This document shows positions 33,390 through 48,251 of a stretch of 64,000 nucleotides of DNA, one piece after another; position 1 is the stretch's first letter; each line of letters begins with the position of its first letter. The stretch covers positions 235,324 to 299,323 of the forward strand of contig WHVD01000106.1 of the NCBI GenBank assembly GCA_015178975.1, given 5' to 3'. The DNA comes from Hysterangium stoloniferum. Lineage: Eukaryota; Basidiomycota; Agaricomycetes; Hysterangiales; Hysterangiaceae. Under the pieces are notes generated by a model. It made no database searches. It was not told the origin of the DNA and saw only the letters and a program-made list of their open reading frames with translations. Both the position numbers and the translations under genes were made by a program.

Positions 33390-33715
33390 AAGCCTAGATA
33401 CCCAATAGAGTGTGTGTGAAAAGTACATTTTTTTACCATTTGCAAAAAGACCATGTTTCTGGAGTCTCTGGAGAACTTCACAGACCCTTTCATCATGTAG
33501 AGTGGGGTCCTTCAAAATCACACATTTATCAAGCATGTCAGAGAAAATGTCATTAACAAAATGCTGGAAGATGGAAGGGGAATTGGTGAGCCTGAAGGGC
33601 ATAGCCAACCATTCAAAGCCACATAGCAGGTATGTAAGGTGGCTTTCTACTTGTCATCCACCACTATCTAGACCAAATGGTAGGTATGTTTGAGGTCTAT
33701 CTTGGTAAAAATTTA
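33390..33715 (-). pseudogene. Fragment of a gypsy reverse transcriptase
   Basis: The minus strand reads WLAMPFRLTNSPSIFQHFVN, then DPTLHDERVCEVLQRLQKHG and FANGK, matching gypsy-1 RT. The segment with the YLDD motif is mostly missing. The fragment ends in the IYTKI region, immediately followed by the LTR at 33,722. Confidence 0.85.
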
Positions 33716-33721
33716 GGCATT

Positions 33722-34357
33722 TGTTAAGTGCAGGAAATCTACCTGGGTTTTCCAATGGCTATTCCAAGGGTTCTCCAGAAATGGTCAGGGGATTTCCTAG
33801 GAGATACTCCAGGGAATAGTCCATGGAGTTTCCAGGAAATGATCTGGGGGATATCAGAATATTACCAGGGTATGAGAAGTACTTGGCTTCAGCTTATGTG
33901 CTGTGCCCTCGTACACACATTCAGGTGTCCTTATTTCAAGCCTCCAGATAATTACATGAAAGGTATACAGTATATACCTGGAGTTCTGTGGAGTTCCAGA
34001 CATTGAGCAGACAGAAAGAGCAAAGGGGTAGATTAGACTAATTGAAAACTAATTTGAGATACAAACTGGAGAGTAAGTACATGACTATGGAAGACTGTAT
34101 AGTTGTTCCAATTACTTTACTGTATTTTAGTACAAATCTGAAAACATAATAAAACACATTTGGAAATGTTTCCAAACTAAGCATGTAATAACAAGTCAGA
34201 TAAATAAGGAACAAAAATGGGGACAGATCAGGTAATAAGGGCAGGAACAATAAATAAATGAATGAACATCAACCAGTCAGTTACTAAATGCAGGATAAAG
34301 AAATCAAGTCAGAATATCCACAGGATATCTGATATTGTCCATAAATGGATTACTGAA
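33722..34357 (-). mobile_element. Solo LTR next to the RT fragment
   Basis: It starts TGTTAAGTGC at 33,722, contains the U5 hairpin motif at 33,880-33,915, and ends at the position equivalent to the LTR end at 27,324 (here ggattactgaa). The bases gcatt occur on both sides (33,717-33,721 and 34,358-34,362), consistent with a 5-bp duplication. The terminal bases are mutated, so the call is moderate. Confidence 0.6.
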
Positions 34358-34362
34358 GCATT

Positions 34363-34969
34363 TATAGGAACACTGGAAGTCCAGGTTGGGAAATGATCAA
34401 GGACACTTGGAGATGTGAGCTGGGAGAGGGCAGAGTCCAATGGGTTCTGGGGCATAAGATAAAGTGCCTAGTTGAGGGCAGGATATCAGAACAGGATTTG
34501 AGTCAAAGGGTACTTGAGGGATGAGGGTCAGGTTGGATTCTGGATCTTGACACTAGTCCTGAAGATGGTTTGGAACCTGATATTGTATCTGGAAAATACT
34601 CCATGGAGTTCCCAGGAATGGATCTTCACGGTACCCCCATTAGGGCCAATCTCCCAAGGAGGCCATGATATAGGCAGATAGAACTGGTAACACAGAGAAA
34701 GCCCATGGGAGTTCCAAAGATGGGTAATCCAAGGGGTCCAATAATACATAACAAGTTAAAATATCAAGAGCAAGACAAAGGTTAAAATGAAGTCAAGGTA
34801 TCAGAGAAAAGGGGTCAGGTTCTGGCAAGGTGCTGGAATGGTTCAGACAGGATTTGGAAGGTCAGGATCAAGACAAGGGTCAGGATGAGGCCATGGGCAT
34901 ATTTGGATACTTGATTGTAAGTTCTGACCTCTGAAAAGGTCTAAAACAGGGTTTGGAAGTTCTGAGGGG
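34363..34969. other. Old gypsy-derived flank of gypsy-1
   Basis: No gene. Short blocks such as tcccaaggaggcc (about 34,648) resemble the sequence next to the polypurine tract of gypsy-1 (35,555), so this is probably the decayed 3' region of another element. Confidence 0.4.
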
Positions 34970-35531
34970 TGTTAAGAACTAGAAACTGACTAATGTCGGT
35001 GGCCGATGGGGACCGATCGGAAGGACTTGGCTTCAGCTTATATGCTGCGCCCTTGCAAATATCCGTAGGTAGTCCTTAAATTTTGGGCGGGCGAAGACTA
35101 ATCCTAGTGAGTACCTTTCGGCGAGATACCGATCGGAATCGAAGGACAAGTCGAGCGTCGGGCCGAAAATACTAATGGGGAGAAGGGCGGAACACGGTAT
35201 TAACAATAAGCTTGACTAGGAACGGGAAGTTTATGATTAGTTCGGAGGCCAATGATAACCGAGAGCGGGATTACGGTAAAAGGAAATGGTTCGAGGACTA
35301 CAAATATAGATAGACATATGCGAAACATAAGATTGAACGGATCAACATAATAAAGGGGACGTATCAAAGTTTGACCAGACAATACGAGTTATTTGACGTG
35401 GGCGTAAATGGAGTTTGATCTTCGCGAAACATTCGTCAGCTTCGGGGCCGATGGTTTCCGAGAGGATGACTTGAAACGTTGACAAGTGGCGATAACCTCG
35501 GGGCCGATAGGGTTGCGACACGGTCGTAACA
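34970..35531 (-). repeat. 3' LTR of gypsy-1, 562 bp, with internal deletion
   Basis: Identical in layout to the 720-bp 5' LTR except for the loss of 158 bp (equivalent to 41,930-42,087) and nine single-base differences, all transitions at CpG. The deletion removes the predicted TATA box, transcription start and self-primer. The U5 hairpin motif (35,027-35,060) is retained. Confidence 0.95.
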
Positions 35532-35547
35532 GTATCTCCCCTTTTGG
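35532..35547 (-). other. Polypurine tract of gypsy-1
   Basis: On the minus strand AAAAGGGGAGATAC directly precedes the 3' LTR. A purine run at this place primes plus-strand DNA synthesis in LTR retrotransposons. Confidence 0.75.
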
Positions 35548-35647
35548 CCGAAATCCCAAGGAGGCCGAAAATCTAGATCCCGTACGTAAAAACTTGTCGG
35601 GTACGGCTGGGTGTGTCAAACATCATGTGACTCGGCAAAAGTTTGCA

Positions 35648-35654
35648 TATAAAA
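35648..35654 (+). promoter_or_regulatory. TATA box of the antisense accessory gene
   Basis: TATAAAA lies 57 bp upstream of the ATG at 35,705 on the plus strand, followed by a CT-rich leader and a CACCATG start context. It lies inside gypsy-1 but outside the LTR, so the accessory gene appears to have a promoter independent of the LTR. Confidence 0.65.
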
Positions 35655-35704
35655 GTTTGAGAGTTCCTGGCGCTTGAAATTCCACTTCCCTTCCTTTAAC
35701 CACC

Positions 35705-36616
35705 ATGACCATAGGCTCGGGGTCAAAGCCCTTCCCGGTTAGGTTAACAGTTGCGCCCATGTCGGCGCCGAGTGGTACGGCGAACGCGAAGGAGCGTCGG
35801 CGTATACTCGAGCAGAAGAAAAAGGCGCGTGAAGAGGAGGAGCGGAAAGAGAAGGAGGAGTTGGCGGCCATCGAGGCCGAGGAAAAGAAACAGGCGGCAG
35901 AAGAGGCCGCGCGCAAGCACTGGGAAGCAGTGCTTGCAAAGAACAAGCAGCAGGAGGCCGATCGGGCGCGGGAGGAGGCGGCGAAAAAGAAGCGGGAGGG
36001 AAAAGTGAGTAGGCTCTGGTGTCTTTTGCGAACCTTACTGACAATATCTGTTAGCGCAAGGCTGCAACGCCTTCGGAGTCCGATGACGAAGAGGGAGAGG
36101 AGGACGAGGAGGATGCACCGGGGCCGTCGAGCCCCAAGGTGGGTTCGGTTTCCTAAAAAAAAACTTCCTAAAAAATTTTTTATTTTTTTTTATAGAAACA
36201 AAAGCAGGCCCCCAAGGCGGGGCCCGAAAATGACCCCAAGTGCAATCGGTGCACGAAACGGGGTCGAACCTGTCATCCCCGGACCAATGGTCGGGGCCGC
36301 ACTTGTCAAGAGTGCGCTGATCAGAAGCTTGGGTGTGTTTTCCCGGGGGCCGATGGCTCATTCCAGGAGCGACAGGCCGATGCTCTAGAAGAGCAAAACC
36401 GCCTCATGCGGACTCTTGGGCGTCAGGCTGGAGAAACAAACCAGTGTTATCGAGTCTCTCGGTGGTCAACTTGAGCAGTATTTGGAAGTCTCGAGTTGCG
36501 GTGGGCATGAAATTGGGGTTTCGGAGAAGGTCGGTGGTGTGGTATCGGTGGCTGTCGGTGCGGAGGAGGGTTCGGAGGTCGGAGAGGAGGGAGAAGTTGT
36601 AGAGGGAGAAACTTAG
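35705..36616 (+). CDS. Antisense accessory gene of gypsy-1: coiled coil plus Zn2Cys6-like motif
   Basis: Exons 35,705-36,004, 36,055-36,138 and 36,196 onward; introns of 50 and 57 nt with GT..AG ends, the first with a CTGAC branch site. The frame stays open through both splices. Residues about 25-100 are a highly charged coiled coil (REEEERKEKEELAAIEAEEK). Exon 2 is acidic. Exon 3 has six cysteines spaced C-x2-C-x6-C-x10-C-x2-C-x6-C with basic residues between the second and third, the fungal Zn2Cys6 pattern, then a second coiled coil (ADALEEQNRLM). An extra G near 36,418-36,420 shifts the frame, giving a stop at 36,472; the other frame runs on with a coiled coil and acidic tail to 36,616. 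DNA binding is inferred from the motif only. It converges on pol, ending 96 bp from the pol stop. Confidence 0.75.
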
Positions 36617-36712
36617 ATAGTGAAATATATTGGTTTTTCTTTTTAAACAAACAAATCATAGCGTGAAAACATAAGGCATAGTCGGAAAAAGGTCGGGTAC
36701 CGCGTGATAGAC

Positions 36713-39700
36713 TTATAAGGAATTGAGAGGACCGGGTTTGTTCGGATAAGCTTGGTGAAACCCTAAAACGATTTCCGAGGCATTACCGAGCTCTGTAGCT
36801 AGGATCCATGAAGTTTCTTCATCTGTACCTTCATAGCCAGCCCATTTGACCAAATAAAGTAATTTGCATGAGCGTCGGCGATTGTCAATTTTTGAGTCTA
36901 GGATTTCTGATATCTTGAATTCGGGTTCCCCATCAATAATCACGGGTGGAGGTGGTGGCTGTATGCGATCCGGTATATTGTTAGGAACACAAGGTTCTAA
37001 CATAGATACATGAAATACTGGGTGCACTGCACGCATGTTGTCGGGGAGCCGAAGCATCCATGAAAGCGTGCCGGCTTGTGCTATAACTTCAAAAGGACCT
37101 AAATATTTTTCAGAGAGCTTCTTAGAAGGTCTAGTAGTTCGGAAAAACTCGGCTTTAACGAATACTCGGTCTCCGATCTTGAAATCAGGAGGTGGAAGTC
37201 GGTTTTTATCCGCAGACCGTTGGTATCGTTCTTGAGCCATTGCGATAGTTTTACGAAGTTCTTGATGTAGCTCGTCGAGGTTTGTAACAAAGTCTTGAGC
37301 ACGGGCGGATGCGAGATCGCGTTCCGGGTGGATTGCGATGTTGGGGTTGTAGCCTTTATTTGCGAAGAAAGGCGAAATGCCAGTAGTGGCATTCGGTGCG
37401 TTGTTGTATGCGAATTCGGCCAGCGGTAGTAGTGATTTCCAATTGTCTTGTTGATAGTTGCAATAGACACGGATGTATTGCTCCAAGGTTTGATTCATGC
37501 GTTCGGTTTGTCCATTGCCTTCCGGGTGATAGCCCGAAGTGAAATGTAACTTCATGTCTAGTGCTTTTCCGAGTGACCTAAAGAAGTGAGAGACAAACTC
37601 GGATCTGCGATCGGATGTGACATGCGACGGAACGCCATGCTTGGAGAATACGTGGGTAACGAATAATTCAGCTAACTGTACAGATGTTATCGTGTCATAT
37701 GTTGGAATGAAAATACTTTGCTTTGAGAGCCGATCCACAACAACTAGGATTGCTGTGTGACCTTCGGATGCCGGTAGGTGCTCGATAAAATCCATAGAAA
37801 TCGAGTTCCAAGGTTTTTCCGGTATCGGTAATTGTTTGAGTAGGCCATATGGTTTGTGTCGCTGTGATTTAGAGCGTAAACACGTAGTACAGGATTTACA
37901 ATAGTGCTTAACAAAATCTCGGATGCCGGGCCATGTATATTCTCTTCTAATGAGTGAGAGGGTCTTATTGAGGCCGAAATGTCCTGAGATTGGGTGGTCG
38001 TGCTTATGTTGTAGGATTCGCAGCCGAAGGGTGTTGGAATCCGGTACATAAATGCGATTGTCAAGTCGAATGAAACCTTGTGAGTCTAATGACCATCGGG
38101 GTTGATCGGGGTCGGACGGGTTATCGAGGTGTGCTTTGGTGACTGGGTCTAATGGAATTGCCGATAGTATGTCTTGATGTAACTTTTCGGTATCCATAAG
38201 GATAACACTTCGCAAGACTGGATGAATGAGGTAAGTGGCTCGGATAGACGCGGACAGTTGTTCCGATGAAAACATAGGTTTGAAATTATGCGGATTAACT
38301 GTGGCGTAGTCGCTACTCCCCTCTTTAGGATAGACGTCCCATCGTCTAGTCATAGCGTCGGGTTTTCCACCAAGGCGGCCGGGACGGAAGCGAATTACCA
38401 TGTTGAAAGCGGAGAGGTATTCGGACCATCGAGCTTGTCGACGGGTGAGAAGTTTTGTGGTTGAAAAGTAAACTAAATTTTTGTGGTCTGTAATAACATC
38501 TACCGGGTGGGCCGAGCCCTCCAAATAATGTCGCCATGTCTTGAAAGCTTCAAAGATTGCGAGTAATTCCTTATCGTGAACGTCGTAGTTGAGTTCGGGC
38601 GCCGAAAATGTGCGAGACAGAAAAGCTACTGGGTGTACTTCACCATCGGTGTCCAGAATGGACAATATCGCGGCAAGCGCATAGTCCGAAGCATCAGTTT
38701 CCACGATGAGTTGAACGTCGGGTTTCCAGTGCGACAAAATAGGGGCGGATGTAAACGCACTTTTCAATTCCTGGAATGCCGATCGGCATTCGTCGGAGAA
38801 ATTCCACGGGGTGTCTTTGCGAGTAAGACAAGTGAGCGGAACGGTAATTTTTGAGTAATTGTGAATGAAACGGCGATAAAAATTGGCGAAGCCTAAAAAG
38901 GACTGAATATCTTTAACCTTTCGGGGTTCCGGCCAATCTTGAATGACTTGAATTTTAGAGTCGTCCATGCGGAGACCGTCGGGTTCCATCATGAAGCCTA
39001 AGTATTCAACCGTGTCGACATCAAAAGAACATTTTTTACCATTCGCAAAAAGACCATGTTTTCGGAGTCTTCGGAGGACTTCACGGACGTGTTCATCATG
39101 AAGTGTAGGGTCTTCGGAGAAGATGAGGATGTCGTCTAGGTACACAATGACAAAGACGTCAAGTAGGTCGGAAAAGACATCGTTGATAAAACGTTGAAAG
39201 ACCGACGGAGCGTTGGTGAGGCCGAAAGGCATCACTAACCATTCAAAGGAACCATAGCGAGTGCGAAAAGCTGTTTTCCATTCGTCACCTTCGGCGATCC
39301 GAACCAAATGATAGGCATGTTTGAGATCTATCTTTGTATAAATTCGGGCCTTCCGAGGGGCGTCGAGTAAATCGGAGATTAGTGGTAATGGGTACTTGTC
39401 TTTTCAAGTAATCGCGTTTAGTCCTCGAAAGTCAACGCAAAGTCGAAGGGAACCGTCTTTTTTCCGAACGAATAGGACAGGGGCTCCATAGGGAGACTTT
39501 GAGGGTCGGATAAAACCTATAGCCAAGTGTTCATCCAAGAAATCTCGGATAGCCGATAATTCGGACTGCGAGAGAGGATAAACTGGGCCTAGGGGCGGAT
39601 GTGAACCATCTTCAATATCAATTTTCAAATCGTAGGGCCTGTGAGGGGCGAGTCGATCGGCTTTTTGTTTGCTGAAGACATCTGCAAATTCATGGTATTT

Positions 39701-40525
39701 TTTAGGAACACCTTCTAAATCTGCGATCGGTTCAGTCACCGGGGATGCGAAGCGACCGGTGACTTCGTCAACTTTAAGATTGACTGTAAATGCTCGGGAG
39801 CCGTCCAACTTGATGGCTCTCATAAAAGCTGCGGCGTTTATTAGAGAGACGGGCGGCGGAGAGCTCGGATTTGCCACGGGGGCCGGAGGTGCTGTAGAAG
39901 CCATATTTGCCGAAACAGGCAGAAACGGACCAGTCGTATCGGGTGCCGACGGGGTTCGGAAATGGATACTGCCCAATACCCAATCAATCAACGGATTATA
40001 GCGGGTGAGCCAGTTATGTCCTAGAACCACGGAGCAACTCGAGTCCAACTGTGTTACAAAAAACGTAACCGTCTGAAAGGTTCCACACGGGAACCGAAGT
40101 CGGAGTTCGCAGGCTTGCGAGATTACGGAGTTTGAGGTACCATCAAAAAGTCGGAGCATAATCGGATCTATTGCATAAGTTTTCAACTGTTTTTTTCGGG
40201 AAAAACTTGTATCTATAAAACAATGGGTTGAACCTGAATCTATGAGAGCTCGAAAAGTGAAACTCCCGAGAGGTTCCGAAGTAAGATTTATGAACAAAGA
40301 ATTAGGATCATACAAGGCGGATGCGTTAAGATGACAATTTTCCGGTGTGCGAGGAGATTCAACGCAACTCTCCAACTGCACGGAATCCAGAGAGTTGCTT
40401 AATCTTTTTTCGACTCGGCAGCCGGCTTGGCCGGTTGTGAGGTCATGGCCGTATTGGCCGATCGGGCTTTTGTGGCTTTTGGGCATGCAGCGACTCGGTG
40501 TCCGGGATCTGCACACAACAAACAA
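36713..40525 (-). CDS. pol: gypsy-1 pol: protease, RT, RNase H, integrase, chromodomain (one internal stop)
   Basis: The frame overlaps the end of gag and is in the -1 frame to it. Protease: ALIDSGSTH at about 40,240. RT: GLNAIT at 39,407, then a TGA at 39,404-39,406 where an arginine codon (CGA) is expected, then KDKYPLP; YLDD at about 39,131-39,142. RNase [13 protein letters not shown] and FLSRTF. Integrase: HHCC zinc finger ([19 protein letters not shown]), catalytic D in SMDFIEHL, D in TSDRRSEF and E in [11 protein letters not shown]. The SDRRSEF site normally reads SDRGSEF, so one residue beside a catalytic Asp is changed. The end ([21 protein letters not shown]) is a chromodomain. In total about 1,270 codons. 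The single stop probably makes this copy non-autonomous. Confidence 0.92.
40399..40412 (-). promoter_or_regulatory. Candidate -1 frameshift site between gag and pol
   Basis: On the minus strand the gag frame reads TCG AAA AAA GAT TAA, and the pol frame is -1 to it. A slip on the A run two codons before the gag stop would fuse gag to pol. The decayed gypsy-2 keeps the same layout with seven A (15,635-15,641) and its gag stop directly behind. Confidence 0.5.
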
Positions 40526-41696
40526 AGGTTGTTGTCCATTCGGCGTTGCTTTTCCTGTGGTAGGAGCTTGCCATCGGAGCCGAGTTTGCCAGTTAAGTCG
40601 GGTTTGTCTTTGTCTTGAGATTTATTCGACTGTTTGCCCTTGCCTTTTTTGTCGTTAGACCCTTTGTTTTCGGACTTCTTATCGGAAGTCGAGTTGCCAG
40701 TGTTATTGGTGTTTTGATTACCAGACTTGTTGGCATTTTTGTTGTCCAATGATTTTTTGTCCGACGGGTTTTCGCGACTGATTTCCGAACATCGTTCCCA
40801 GTATCGAGCGTCTGCGTTTTGGGCTTTCAGGCGCATGAGAGGGAGGGTTTTCGGCTTGCCGGTCTCTCCTTTGGAAACTTCGTCTTTGAGGCGAGACGGA
40901 AGGCCGGAGTAAAACTGGTATCGGAGGGCCGAATCGCCCCAGTCGCAACGCGCGGCGAGGTTGTTGAACTGGACGATATAATCAGTGATGCGCTGAGTGT
41001 CCTTCATTTTGAGATTAGAAAGCGCGGTTTCTGCATCGCCGGTTTGGTCGTAGGGGCCGAAGTTGGTTTCGAGTTCCTCGACAAAGGCATCCCAATCGTG
41101 GAGCCAATCGGGTCTTCAGAGGTGAGGCCAGAAAATGCGGGTTCGAACCAGGCTGCTGCGGAATCCTTAAGGTATGAGAGTGCGAAGTTTACCTTTCGGT
41201 CATCCGTTGCAAATGCAGCCGGGCGGTCCCGAAAGTTGAATCGACATTGCATGAGAAATGTCGGCAATTTCTTCGGGTTTGAGCCAGTAAATGGCTCGGG
41301 TTTGTTGACTCGGGTTTGCCCAGGTTCCTTTTCCTTGATATTGCTTTTAAGGAATTCATTAAGGGATCCTAGTGTACCTGAAAACAATTCCCATGTTTCT
41401 TCAGGGTCGAGAGCCGGTTTCTTCTTTGCAGACTTCTTGGAGCCACTAGCCTGAGGTTGGTCGCCATCCTCGGGTTCGTGTTCCGAAACTGGTTGATTGT
41501 TAATCTCCTCAGTTGCTTCGGGATCGGTTGCTTCAGTTACTTCTTCAGCATCGCCGGTAATCTCCACAAAGCGAGATTCTTCGGAGGTTTCTGGTAACGG
41601 AGTTTTCTGAGTAGCTCGGGCTGTATACAGAAAAGGAGACTTGAGAGTGGAAGATTCTGCTTCGCCGCTAGGCTTGGCATTTTTCCTCGGAGGCAT
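40399..41696 (-). CDS. gag: gypsy-1 gag with CCHC zinc knuckle (one frameshift)
   Basis: It starts [11 protein letters not shown] at 41,696. The capsid-like region ([20 protein letters not shown]) follows an acidic N-terminal segment. Near 41,110-41,112 a run of G is one base short, shifting the frame. The other frame continues without a gap ([20 protein letters not shown]) through [20 protein letters not shown] to a Lys/Asn/Ser-rich linker. A zinc knuckle follows, [14 protein letters not shown] (C-x2-C-x4-H-x4-C). It stops at 40,399-40,401, just after a run of six A. The missing base could be a real mutation or a sequencing error. Gag forms the particle that packages the element RNA. Confidence 0.9.
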
Positions 41697-41721
41697 GTTT
41701 AGACAGAAAATGCAAGTGTGA

Positions 41722-41732
41722 AATCAGAATAT
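41722..41732 (-). other. Primer-binding position of gypsy-1 (self-priming type)
   Basis: The 11 nt lying 2 bp inside the 5' LTR (minus strand atattctgatt) are perfectly complementary to 11 nt in the LTR at 42,027-42,037. No TGG start complementary to a tRNA 3' end is present. This is the geometry of Tf1/sushi-type self-priming, where the 5' end of the transcript folds back as the primer. Confidence 0.7.
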
Positions 41733-41734
41733 AC

Positions 41735-42454
41735 TGTTAAGAACTAGAAACTGACTAATGTCGGTGGCCGACGGGGACCGATCGGAAGGACTTGGCTTCA
41801 GCTTATATGCTGCGCCCTCGCAAATATCCGTAGGTAGTCCTTAAATTTCGGGCGGGCGAAGACTAATCCTAGTGAGTACCTTTCGGTGAGATACTGATCG
41901 GAATCGAAGGACAAGTCGAGCGTCGGGCCAAGGGGTCGGGGCCGGGAGTGGGCGAGCGCACACGAAGGCGGATGGGGGGATTCTTAGTATGAGACTGATA
42001 CAGGTGTATGAGGGTATTCTGAGTCGATATTCTGATTGCCTAGTAACTACAATTACAGCGGGTTCATATACAAGTAACAGGCGTCTGGAAAATACTAATG
42101 GGGAGAAGGGCGGAACACGGTATTAACAATAAGCTTGACTAGGAACGGGAAGTTTATGATTAGTTCGGAGGCCGATGATAACCGAGAGCGGGATTATGGT
42201 AAAAGGAAATGGTTCGAGGACTACAAATATAGATAGACATATGCGAAACATAAGATTGAACGGATCAACATAATAAAGGGGACATATCAAAGTTTGACCA
42301 GACAATACGAGTTATTTGACGTGGGCGTAAATGGAGTTTGATCTTCGCGAAACATTCGTCAGCTTCGGGGCCGATGGTTTCTGAGAGGATGACTTGAAAC
42401 GTTGACAAGTGGCGATAACCTCGGGGCCGATAGGGTTGCGACACGGTCGTAACA
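41735..42454 (-). repeat. 5' LTR of gypsy-1, 720 bp, full length
   Basis: In the element's direction it holds a TATA-like TGTATATGAA (plus coordinates 42,064-42,073). About 30 bp further is the 11-nt sequence at 42,037-42,027 that would start the transcript and act as self-primer. The U5 hairpin motif is at 41,787-41,821. The LTR at 47,506-48,251 belongs to the same family. Confidence 0.95.
42065..42072 (-). promoter_or_regulatory. Predicted TATA box of the gypsy-1 LTR
   Basis: On the minus strand tgtatatgaa lies about 30 bp upstream of the self-primer 11-mer, which would then be the very 5' end of the transcript. The related solo LTR at 47,506-48,251 keeps both (tctatatacaag and atattctgatt). 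Confidence 0.55.
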
Positions 42455-42459
42455 AGGGG

Positions 42460-46113: not shown

Positions 46114-47264
46114 TGTTAAGTTCCGAACAAAGCTATAAACTCCGAGGAAGTCCCACGGAGTGTTTCCGGTAATTATTCTGAACACATGCTTTCTTCCGGG
46201 AATTGTCCCACGGAGTCCCCGGGTAATAAGTCCGGGGAAGTTCCGGGGATTAGTAGTACAATACAGTGTATCAGAATAATTACCAGAAAGGTATGGCATG
46301 GGCTGAGATGGACTTGGCTTCAGCTTATGGGCTGGACCCTCATACACTCATTCGGGCGTCCATATTTCAAGCTGACAGAATGCATACAGGAAGATGTCGA
46401 TTCCAGAGTTCCCGTGGGAGTTCCGGAAATCGAGTGTGCAGACAGATGAGAGGAGCAGAGACTGGATCAGGATGGGGGAGTAACTTGTTCAAGGGTCAAA
46501 CTTGTTCGAGAGTCAAACTTGTTCAAGGGTCAAACTTGTTCAAGGGTCAAACTTGTTCAAGGGTCAAACTTGTTTGAGATTGAAACTGGATTCTAAGTAC
46601 ATGAATTTAGCAGACTTATATAGACTGTGAAATGTAATAATACCAAATCCGGTATTAATGAGGGGCAGAACTATTAAACATAAAACAAAACAAGTAAATA
46701 CTAAACTAGGTATTAGGGACGGAATGGAATAGGAGCGGAGAATGAATCATGACAGGGCATTTAACCATAACAGGAGTGGGGCTCAGTTAGAGGGGTTCCG
46801 GAAGTCCGGTCAGAGTCCGGTGACTTGGTGCACAAGATAGTGTCGGGTATAGACAGGTTTGATGTGCAGGAGGTCCGGTGGAGTCTGGTGGGTTTTCCGA
46901 TGACTGGTGTGTGAGACGCAGAGACAGATCATAATGGGAGTGGGGTTCTATGCTCTGTTAGAGGGGTTCTGGGAGTCTGGTCAGAGTCTGGTGACTGGTA
47001 CATAAGACACAGAGTGTCGGGTGTATATAGGGTGGAGTCTGGAGTCTGGTGGAGTCCAGAGTCCAGTGGAGTCCAAGGACTGGTGTATGAGACACAGAGG
47101 GTTAGGTGCAGACAGGTGGGATGCATATAGAGAGTCAGGCATAAACAAGTTGATGTGTGGGCTCTGGTGGGAACTCCAGTTGTAACTATACAATATAGAG
47201 GGTCGGGAACATGTAGGACGGGGTCCGGGAGCCCAGAGGCCGGCGGGCTTTCCGGTTCCTGACA
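46114..47264 (-). mobile_element. Solo LTR, 1,151 bp, nested in an older LTR
   Basis: It starts TGTTAAGTTCCG and ends GGTTCCTGACA, with perfect 5-bp duplications GGTGG (46,109-46,113 and 47,265-47,269). It carries the U5 hairpin motif at 46,310-46,343 and a 17-bp minisatellite at 46,487-46,575. It retains more CpG than its surroundings, so it is fairly young. Confidence 0.92.
46487..46575. repeat. 17-bp minisatellite, about 5 copies
   Basis: The unit cttgttcaagggtcaaa is repeated head to tail with one variant (cttgttcgagagtcaaa), inside the LTR 46,114-47,264. Confidence 0.95.
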
Positions 47265-47505: not shown

Positions 47506-48251
47506 TGTTAAGAACAGAAAACTGACTGATGTCAGTAGACCGACGGGGACCGAATGGAAGGACTTGGCTTCAACCTATATGCTGCGCCCTTGCAAGTTAC
47601 TGTTGGGTGTCCTTAAATTTTGGGCAGGCAGAAACTAGTCCTATCGAGTAAACCTCATGGTGGGTTACTAATCAGAAACTGAAGAATAAGTTGAGTGTTG
47701 GGTCGAAGGGTTGGAGACCGGGGGTGAGTGAGCGCAGGCAGAGGCAGAGAGCAGGATACTTAGAGCGAGACTATGAGATATATATATGAGTGTTCTGAGT
47801 CAATATTCTGATTGCCTAGTAACTACATTACAGCGGGTCTATATACAAGTTATTGGCATCTAGAAACTACTAACTAAGGGAAGAGTGGAAATACTATTTA
47901 CAAATAGACTTGACTAGAAACTGGAAGGTTACGATAAGATCGGAAGCTGTGAATAACCGAGAAGCAGGATTATGAGAAAAGGGAATAGTCCACGGGCTAC
48001 AAGTATATACAGGCATATGTGAAACATAGAGTAGAACAGATCATCATAATAAAAGGGATGTATCAAAGCATACATAACCAGATGGTATGAGTATAACTTG
48101 ACAGGGGCATAAACAGGGTTTGATTGCCATGAAGGTATATGTCAGTGTTGGGTTACTGACAGTTGCTGATAGGATAACTTGACCAGTAACTTGAAATGCA
48201 GGTGGACAATAGTATCAGCAGGGACCATCGGGTTGCAACATGGTCATAACA
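47506..48251 (-). mobile_element. Solo LTR of the gypsy-1 family, 746 bp
   Basis: It runs from TGTTAAGAACAG to CATGGTCATAACA with perfect 5-bp duplications CTACA (47,501-47,505 and 48,252-48,256). It aligns end to end with the gypsy-1 5' LTR, including the TATA block, the self-primer 11-mer and the hairpin motif (here with one stem mismatch). Many differences are C to T or G to A, so it is older. Confidence 0.95.

Follow-up and report, generated by a model that had tools for sequence, protein, structure and literature searches.

A spliced, conserved antisense gene for a zinc-cluster-like protein and an excess of TCGG palindromes in a Ty3/gypsy retrotransposon of Hysterangium stoloniferum

A Ty3/gypsy retrotransposon of the ectomycorrhizal false truffle Hysterangium stoloniferum carries a three-exon gene for a zinc-cluster-like protein, placed between pol and the 3′ long terminal repeat (LTR) and antisense to gag-pol, and its DNA holds a statistical excess of the gapped palindrome TCGG-N2-4-CCGA. 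The element occupies positions 34970-42454 on the - strand of a 64,000-nucleotide stretch (assembly GCA_015178975.1, contig WHVD01000106.1, positions 235,324 to 299,323 of the forward strand; hereafter the window, numbered from its first letter), and the gene is read on the + strand. We regard it as practically certain that this antisense gene is real and conserved, because some copies are intact, both introns keep their places and splice sites, the frame has been under purifying selection from one subfamily to another, and its antisense position is constant. That its product binds the element's own DNA at these palindromes and controls the element is a plausible reading, slightly less likely than not, which we advance tentatively from the sequence features described below.

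An initial annotation of this DNA had described an antisense frame between pol and the 3′ LTR with three exons, GT..AG introns, an acidic exon, a TATA box followed by a CACCATG start, and the cysteine pattern C-x2-C-x6-C-x10-C-x2-C-x6-C; all of these were recovered here (Table 1), the promoter role of the TATA-like word being putative. A counterpart of that word, CATATAAGA, lies 65 bp before the ATG of L078, a copy from a diverged subfamily, so that both subfamilies have it in a similar place. A correction is needed for the window copy, which is not intact: 74 bp are missing at about 36411, and the resulting frameshift stops the protein after 220 amino acids, with the stretch that follows the cysteines and the stop at 36616 out of frame in the window copy and in frame in others. 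A DNA search of the genome for the gene scored 40 of 297 candidates, the window copy included, and 38 of the 39 copies fetched were aligned with the window copy to give 39 rows (L040 was left out because of a 2,165-bp insertion). An intact 292-amino-acid protein is encoded in 26 of these rows, the six-cysteine pattern is kept in 38, and GT..AG borders are present at both introns in all 39. The second intron varies from 47 to 63 nucleotides and is not a multiple of three in 33/39 rows (a multiple in 6/39); the frame is therefore preserved only through splicing.

The position of the gene is as constant as its structure. A genome-wide search for the end of pol scored 150 matches of 3001 candidates, and at least 123 of these 150 pol ends have a listed gene match beside them, all 123 of them antisense with no same-strand case, the median distance among the matches listed being 219 bp. 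Viewed from the gene, at least 123 of 175 matches (150 + 24 + the window's own) have a listed pol end, both fractions being lower bounds for the matches considered, and no other arrangement of gene and pol within 3 kb occurs among the matches listed. The expectation that other copies would carry the gene was thus confirmed. A conserved gene that most of the scored copies have in this place, with its orientation opposed to gag-pol, is by its arrangement an aORF-3R gene.

Selection on the frame was assessed between subfamilies. A protein search of the same genome, in which 150 of 376 candidates were scored down to 71% identity over the cysteine part, included eight copies identical to one another over that part, of which L078 is one. 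The L078 gene encodes a protein of 298 amino acids that is 67% identical to the product of L044, a copy of the window subfamily, and retains the frame, the six cysteines and the intron positions, its introns (53 and 48 nucleotides) having different sequences from those of the window type. Comparison of L044 with L078 gives a ratio of nonsynonymous to synonymous substitution rates (dN/dS) that ranges from 0.13 at kappa 1 to 0.22 at kappa 3, dS being 1.1-1.8, and the differences fall 55/64/154 by codon position; the other five frames give 1.8-2.3 in four cases and 0.33 in one reverse frame. Judged by these codon comparisons, the antisense frame is a protein gene under purifying selection. The ends of pol (36713-37135) of the window and L078 types are 94% identical in protein, against 67% for the antisense gene at dS >1, and either the antisense gene would evolve much faster than the end of pol or it would have been exchanged. 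Across the gene region of 37 rows (the window and 36 copies; the truncated L024 and L042 were left out), CpG transitions account for 101 of 165 variant changes, a share that suggests methylation-driven decay of copies in the host fungus.

Relatives of the protein are scarce in public data. A profile of the two proteins run against about 5.8 billion proteins, with 7984 candidates scored, gave one match, P0001 (E 3.2e-46), a public H. stoloniferum gene model that joins its exons at the same two boundaries and matches one genome place, C537:71926-72972, in pieces at 78-98% identity. A protein search with the cysteine part (93 candidates scored) gave no relatives, nor did viral contigs searched with two patterns from exon 1 only; Rfam had no match in the window, and NCBIfam gave chance-level matches only. 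As a control, that protein database was searched with a portion of pol and yielded 2048 relatives, which shows that fungal elements are covered by it. The antisense gene looks lineage-restricted, with the proviso that gene callers often miss spliced genes. No host origin for it was found, the 42 PF00172 matches in the genome all missing the listed gene matches (by eye).

The encoded protein runs from a charged, E/K/R-rich stretch through basic and acidic stretches to the six cysteines, a linker of about ten residues and a helix-like stretch. The basic stretch KKREGKRK, which we take to resemble a nuclear signal, spans the junction of exons 1 and 2. The cysteine spacing, which L078 shares with the window type, agrees with the Zn2Cys6 pattern of fungal zinc clusters (C-x2-C-x6-C-x5..12-C-x2-C-x6..9-C), and the protein may be called Zn2Cys6-like in spacing and order of parts, a description short of family membership. 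Of the two coiled coils proposed in the initial annotation, the first was rejected, the exon 1 stretch having no hydrophobic heptad periodicity in either subfamily (P 0.61 and 0.72). The second fared better in part: it lies in another frame in the window copy, but where other copies keep it in frame, a modest 3.5-residue periodicity follows the cysteines (P 0.0125 and 0.055 in the two subfamilies).

According to the part of the source available, zinc-cluster proteins bind CGG triplets and their linker sets the spacing of half-sites (PMC6080790); the element's DNA was therefore examined for CGG-type words. Among 136 strand-collapsed 4-mers, TCGG/CCGA had the largest excess in the element (166 observed, 76.8 in dinucleotide shuffles). 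It also came first in gag-pol and the 3′ LTR, and it ranked second in the gene region and fifth in L078 (23 against 12.0 expected). In the window DNA to either side of the element it falls short of expectation (91 against 118.8 and 95 against 118.4). In the element less one LTR, TCGG-N2-4-CCGA occurs 13 times against 1.4-2.2 expected, the highest value among 256 4-mers, and CGG-N3-CCG is present 16 times, the mean for spacings 5-40 being 2.3. No TCGG/CCGA palindrome at spacings 0-12 lies in the window outside the element, and 44 CpG-rich 400-base pieces from there (944 CpGs) contain 108 TCGG/CCGA words and no palindrome. Flank counts (12 palindromes at N2-4 and 32 at N13) were contaminated by the 74-bp segment absent from the window copy and are not used.

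Codon usage does not account for this excess. In 2000 synonymous-codon shuffles, which leave protein sequences and codon usage unchanged, the combined frames of pol, protease, gag and the L044 gene gave 0.88 palindromes on average against the 10 observed, a number reached in none of them; frame by frame, the counts are 4 against 0.32 in pol, 2 against 0.12 in protease, 2 against 0.20 in the second gag frame and 2 against 0.17 in the L044 gene. The spacing was found in the window first and then tried on L078, where TCGG-N2-4-CCGA was again top of 256 4-mers (4 against 0.2-0.3 expected) and the gene's 4 palindromes, against 0.24 under synonymous shuffles, were matched in none of 2000. Two of these four align with window sites but have different core bases, and two do not align (by eye). 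Statistically, then, the palindrome excess is present in the element and in one diverged copy, exceeding codon constraint and recurring in a diverged subfamily.

Elsewhere in the genome, 35 of the first 100 listed palindrome places (C1:1-970603) fall within two gene-bearing elements, 14 in C1:24852-32369 and 21 in C1:269700-277347 among the places listed; five gag-pol sites have cores common to these two elements, and gag-pol is therefore not an independent replicate. Further clusters on C1, at 436294-439929, 768602-775420, 818822-823812 and 824955-828275, have no antisense-gene or pol-end match among those listed, and those at 436, 819 and 825 kb have the same four-site series in common. They are possibly another element family that uses the TCGG palindrome word; the cluster at 436-440 kb, which ends in a series of sites spaced like those of the LTR of the L078 element (by eye), could be a relative whose gene has diverged further or been lost.

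Taken together, these features would fit the following course of events. A conserved accessory gene would be transcribed in the direction opposite to gag-pol, starting close to the 3′ LTR, and would have its two introns removed; its product, with its basic and acidic stretches, six-cysteine motif of a DNA-binding kind, linker and possibly dimerising helix, would probably be nuclear. A zinc-bound dimer might then bind the palindromes scattered over LTRs and coding DNA, and the bound protein could control transcription or chromatin of the element by activation, anti-silencing or repression of copy number. The initial annotation had proposed that the element encodes its own regulator; the spliced antisense gene in that proposal is well supported, and the regulator role is indirect because it derives from the zinc-cluster-like cysteine spacing and the element's TCGG-N2-4-CCGA palindromes. 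A stronger version, in which selection built palindromes into the LTRs and into silent positions of gag, pol and the gene itself so that the whole element and not one promoter is recognised, we find rather doubtful; if true, such element-wide marking may keep the element open against silencing, or count copies.

Several observations weigh against binding and control of the element by its own protein. PF00172 does not match the whole protein or its 117-residue cysteine part at E <= 1, so the likeness to Zn2Cys6 noted in the initial annotation held for the cysteine spacing and not in the hidden Markov model search; a PDB sequence search reached a best E of 2.5, an AlphaFold single-sequence model of the 72 residues before the deletion has low confidence (pLDDT 58.3), and a fold search with that low-confidence model gave no PDB match. 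It would be unusual for a zinc-cluster dimer to accept spacers of 2, 3 and 4 alike, and the first gag frame has no palindrome (0.08 expected). The spacing range was picked after the window had been seen, with L078 (1.2 kb) as the sole further letter-level test. Genome-wide, TCGG-N2-4-CCGA is commoner than TCGG-N6-8-CCGA (8611 against 2978), but the backwards control behaves alike (AGCC-N2-4-GGCT 6959, AGCC-N6-8-GGCT 3018), so that the genome-wide spacing effect is not special to TCGG; the control's preference for short spacers perhaps reflects other repeats. No listed gene match accompanies the palindrome clusters on C1 (near 436-440, 769-775 and 819-828 kb), so a host factor or other elements may be what the sites serve. 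Slower CpG decay in palindromes was not seen among 37 copies (L009-L047 less L024 and L042, the window absent): decay affected 38/589 palindrome CpGs (0.0645), 102/1900 in single TCGG words (0.0537) and 359/4911 others (0.0731), with P 0.49 for the palindromes, and protection of palindrome CpGs as a sign of demethylation was accordingly rejected. Finally, selection as measured by dN/dS, clear between subfamilies, is less so among young copies, where the replacement/silent ratio is mildly low (P 0.19 for shared variants, 0.003 for single variants); single variants lying lower than shared ones was unexpected and perhaps stems from choosing copies by similarity to the window, together with recurring CpG changes.

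Other explanations must be set against the same evidence. The antisense gene could be real and the palindromes nonetheless serve a host zinc-cluster protein or other host factor, with the gene product acting otherwise, for example in nuclear import or packaging. We consider this unlikely while giving it some weight: C1 palindrome clusters occur with no listed gene match, the genome has zinc-cluster proteins of its own (the 42 PF00172 matches are above cut-off and, by eye, none is at a listed gene match), and the encoded protein lacks such a match, but the palindromes lie in coding regions as well as in the LTR, which would be odd for a borrowed host promoter site, and the cysteines of the encoded protein are spaced as in the very family whose sites the palindromes resemble. 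It is less probable still that mutation or composition, for example CpG decay that varies with context or a preference for certain codons, produced the TCGG and palindrome excess as a side effect that plays no part in binding. The many CpG transitions in the gene region do indicate strong mutational pressure on CpG words, and the backwards control also favours short spacers; however, neither dinucleotide nor synonymous shuffles reproduce the excess, which tops 256 4-mers in both the element and L078, and the 44 CpG-rich pieces outside the element contain no palindrome. The decay rate of TCGG CpGs (0.060) lies inside the range for all contexts (0.036-0.105), and the ordinary decay of palindrome CpGs speaks against an excess that arose through slow decay. 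In the element, a by-product is already disfavoured.

Two further possibilities concern the gene itself. Antisense RNA could be the functional product, damping the element through double-stranded RNA or small RNAs with the frame secondary, as is suggested for antisense transcripts of LTR elements generally in the accessible part of one source (PMC7264820); the clear purifying selection on the protein frame, with introns free to diverge, makes this very improbable. That the frame arises by chance where non-coding DNA of the element is read in antisense, a view for which the broken window copy might be cited, can be dismissed almost entirely: intact copies, dN/dS, conserved introns, splice sites and cysteines and the constant antisense linkage rule it out, and P0001 joins its exons at the same two boundaries. 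An element-encoded protein that recognises its own element stays the reading we tentatively favour.

The element that carries the gene is assigned to Ty3/gypsy by its order of reverse transcriptase, RNase H and integrase, its LTR pair and its 5-bp target-site duplication (Table 1). The two LTRs differ by 9 mismatches over 562 aligned positions, and LTRs in nine other copies displayed are about 720 bp long, as in the longer form. Because both LTRs of one element should start identical, the 158 bp missing from the 3′ LTR of the window copy were probably deleted later. The chromo domain (PF00385, residues 798-850 at the integrase end) scores E 7.9e-5 and 22.9 bits, below the 25.1 cut-off, and all gag matches are weak and below cut-offs as well (Retrotrans_gag, zinc knuckle, DUF4939 and Ty3_capsid). 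No primer-binding site was recognised by eye beside the 5′ LTR (window 41690-41740). Older related pieces lie at 33429-33509, 33866-33948, 46297-46379 and 47540-47827; one stretch among them is 84% like a part of the pol region (39032-39112), and the remainder resemble one another or the element's LTR.

Table 1 Features of the retrotransposon and its antisense gene in the window.
Feature	Position	Strand	Remarks
Target-site duplication	34965-34969 and 42455-42459		AGGGG; flanks element
3′ LTR	34970..35531	-	562 bp; lacks 158 bp found in 5′ LTR; LTR pair
TCGG-N3-CCGA	34996..35006		3′ LTR
TCGG-N2-CCGA	35442..35451		3′ LTR; intact in 31/37 copies
TCGG-N2-CCGA	35498..35507		3′ LTR; intact in 34/37 copies
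Polypurine tract	35535..35545	-	AAAAGGGGAGA (element strand); just inside 3′ LTR; read from sequence
TATA-like word	35646..35655	+	CATATAAAAG; 59 bp before ATG of CACCATG; promoter role putative
Exon 1	35705..36004	+	Charged helix-like stretch; ends in basic KKREGK
TCGG-N2-CCGA	35762..35771		Exon 1; L078 counterpart at aligned place, other core (by eye)
Intron 1	36005..36054	+	50 nucleotides, GT..AG
Exon 2	36055..36138	+	Basic, then acidic (RKAATPSESDDEEGEEDEED)
TCGG-N3-CCGA	36073..36083		Exon 2; L078 counterpart at aligned place, other core (by eye)
Intron 2	36139..36195	+	57 nucleotides in window, GT..AG
Exon 3	36196..36616	+	Six-cysteine zinc-cluster-like motif, probably helical stretch, acidic tail; deletion-broken in window
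pol	36713..39307	-	Reverse transcriptase (part), RNase H, integrase, chromo domain (below cut-off); Pfam
TCGG-N4-CCGA	37041..37052		pol
TCGG-N3-CCGA	37166..37176		pol
TCGG-N3-CCGA	38595..38605		pol
TCGG-N4-CCGA	39291..39302		pol
gag-pol protease part	39404..40525	-	Pfam RVP_2, E 8.8e-8
TCGG-N4-CCGA	39545..39556		Protease region
TCGG-N3-CCGA	39939..39949		Protease region
gag	40399..41696	-	Two frames in window copy; weak Pfam matches
TCGG-N2-CCGA	40574..40583		gag
TCGG-N4-CCGA	40921..40932		gag
5′ LTR	41735..42454	-	LTR pair
Four palindromes	41761..42430		5′ LTR; starts 41761, 42165, 42365, 42421

Among known systems, the Zn2Cys6 factors Gal4, Ppr1 and UaY have in common with the window element and its protein the cysteine spacing, a short linker with a helix, and inverted half-sites of CGG type. 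The sites of UaY and Ppr1 are TCGG-N6-CCGA, a spacer of 6 as against 2-4 in the window element; the antisense protein also differs in having no PF00172 match and, at 292 amino acids, is presumably too short for the usual Zn2Cys6 middle homology region. VANDALs are DNA transposons. The VANC anti-silencing protein of Arabidopsis VANDALs, which binds DNA, is likewise element-encoded, and in the available parts of two sources its short motif accumulates in its own element, as tandem repeats in non-coding DNA, whereas the window palindromes are single and dispersed through LTR and coding sequence (PMC5735166, PMC10398659). By analogy, VANC would be the nearest parallel to an element that encodes a protein and is itself rich in that protein's motif. 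HBZ of human T-cell leukaemia virus type 1 (HTLV-1) is a spliced bZIP regulator, the window gene being zinc-cluster-like instead. In the accessible text of the sources HBZ, whose product is nuclear, is likewise encoded antisense within a retroelement (PMC11963269), and the HTLV antisense promoter lies inside the 3′ LTR (PMC7264820), whereas the TATA-like word of the window lies outside it.

The arrangement itself, an accessory gene antisense to gag-pol, is already known. As far as the available parts of the sources describe them, the brtn genes of Boty-like elements in Botrytis cinerea and Sclerotinia belong likewise to fungal gypsy elements, theirs having a chromo domain (PMC7264820, PMC8365987, PMC4227169), in an ascomycete host, unlike the window element; the likeness considered is that of the described arrangement. 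The plant aORF-3R genes named in partly available sources are gene23 of maize Grande, with its own promoter and a nuclear product, rice RIRE2, ORF4 of Silene Retand, whose TRP28 is predicted to bind DNA, and PvRetro13; they belong to other protein families (TRP28, SMC-like), and in the available text neither a zinc-cluster-like motif nor an element-wide DNA word is described for them (PMC7264820, PMC11963269). The initial annotation knew of no description of such a gene in fungal chromoviruses, which holds for the protein type and not for the arrangement: a zinc-cluster-like, intron-bearing antisense gene of a fungal retrotransposon was not found in the open-licence literature, which is not proof of absence from print. 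The novelty lies in the kind of protein, in the introns and most of all in the element-wide gapped palindromes. What the antisense accessory genes of LTR retrotransposons do is described as unknown in the available part of one source (PMC7264820), and against that background a zinc-cluster-like protein with a fitting DNA word across its element offers a concrete, testable target; a match between the two would show how a retrotransposon recognises itself.
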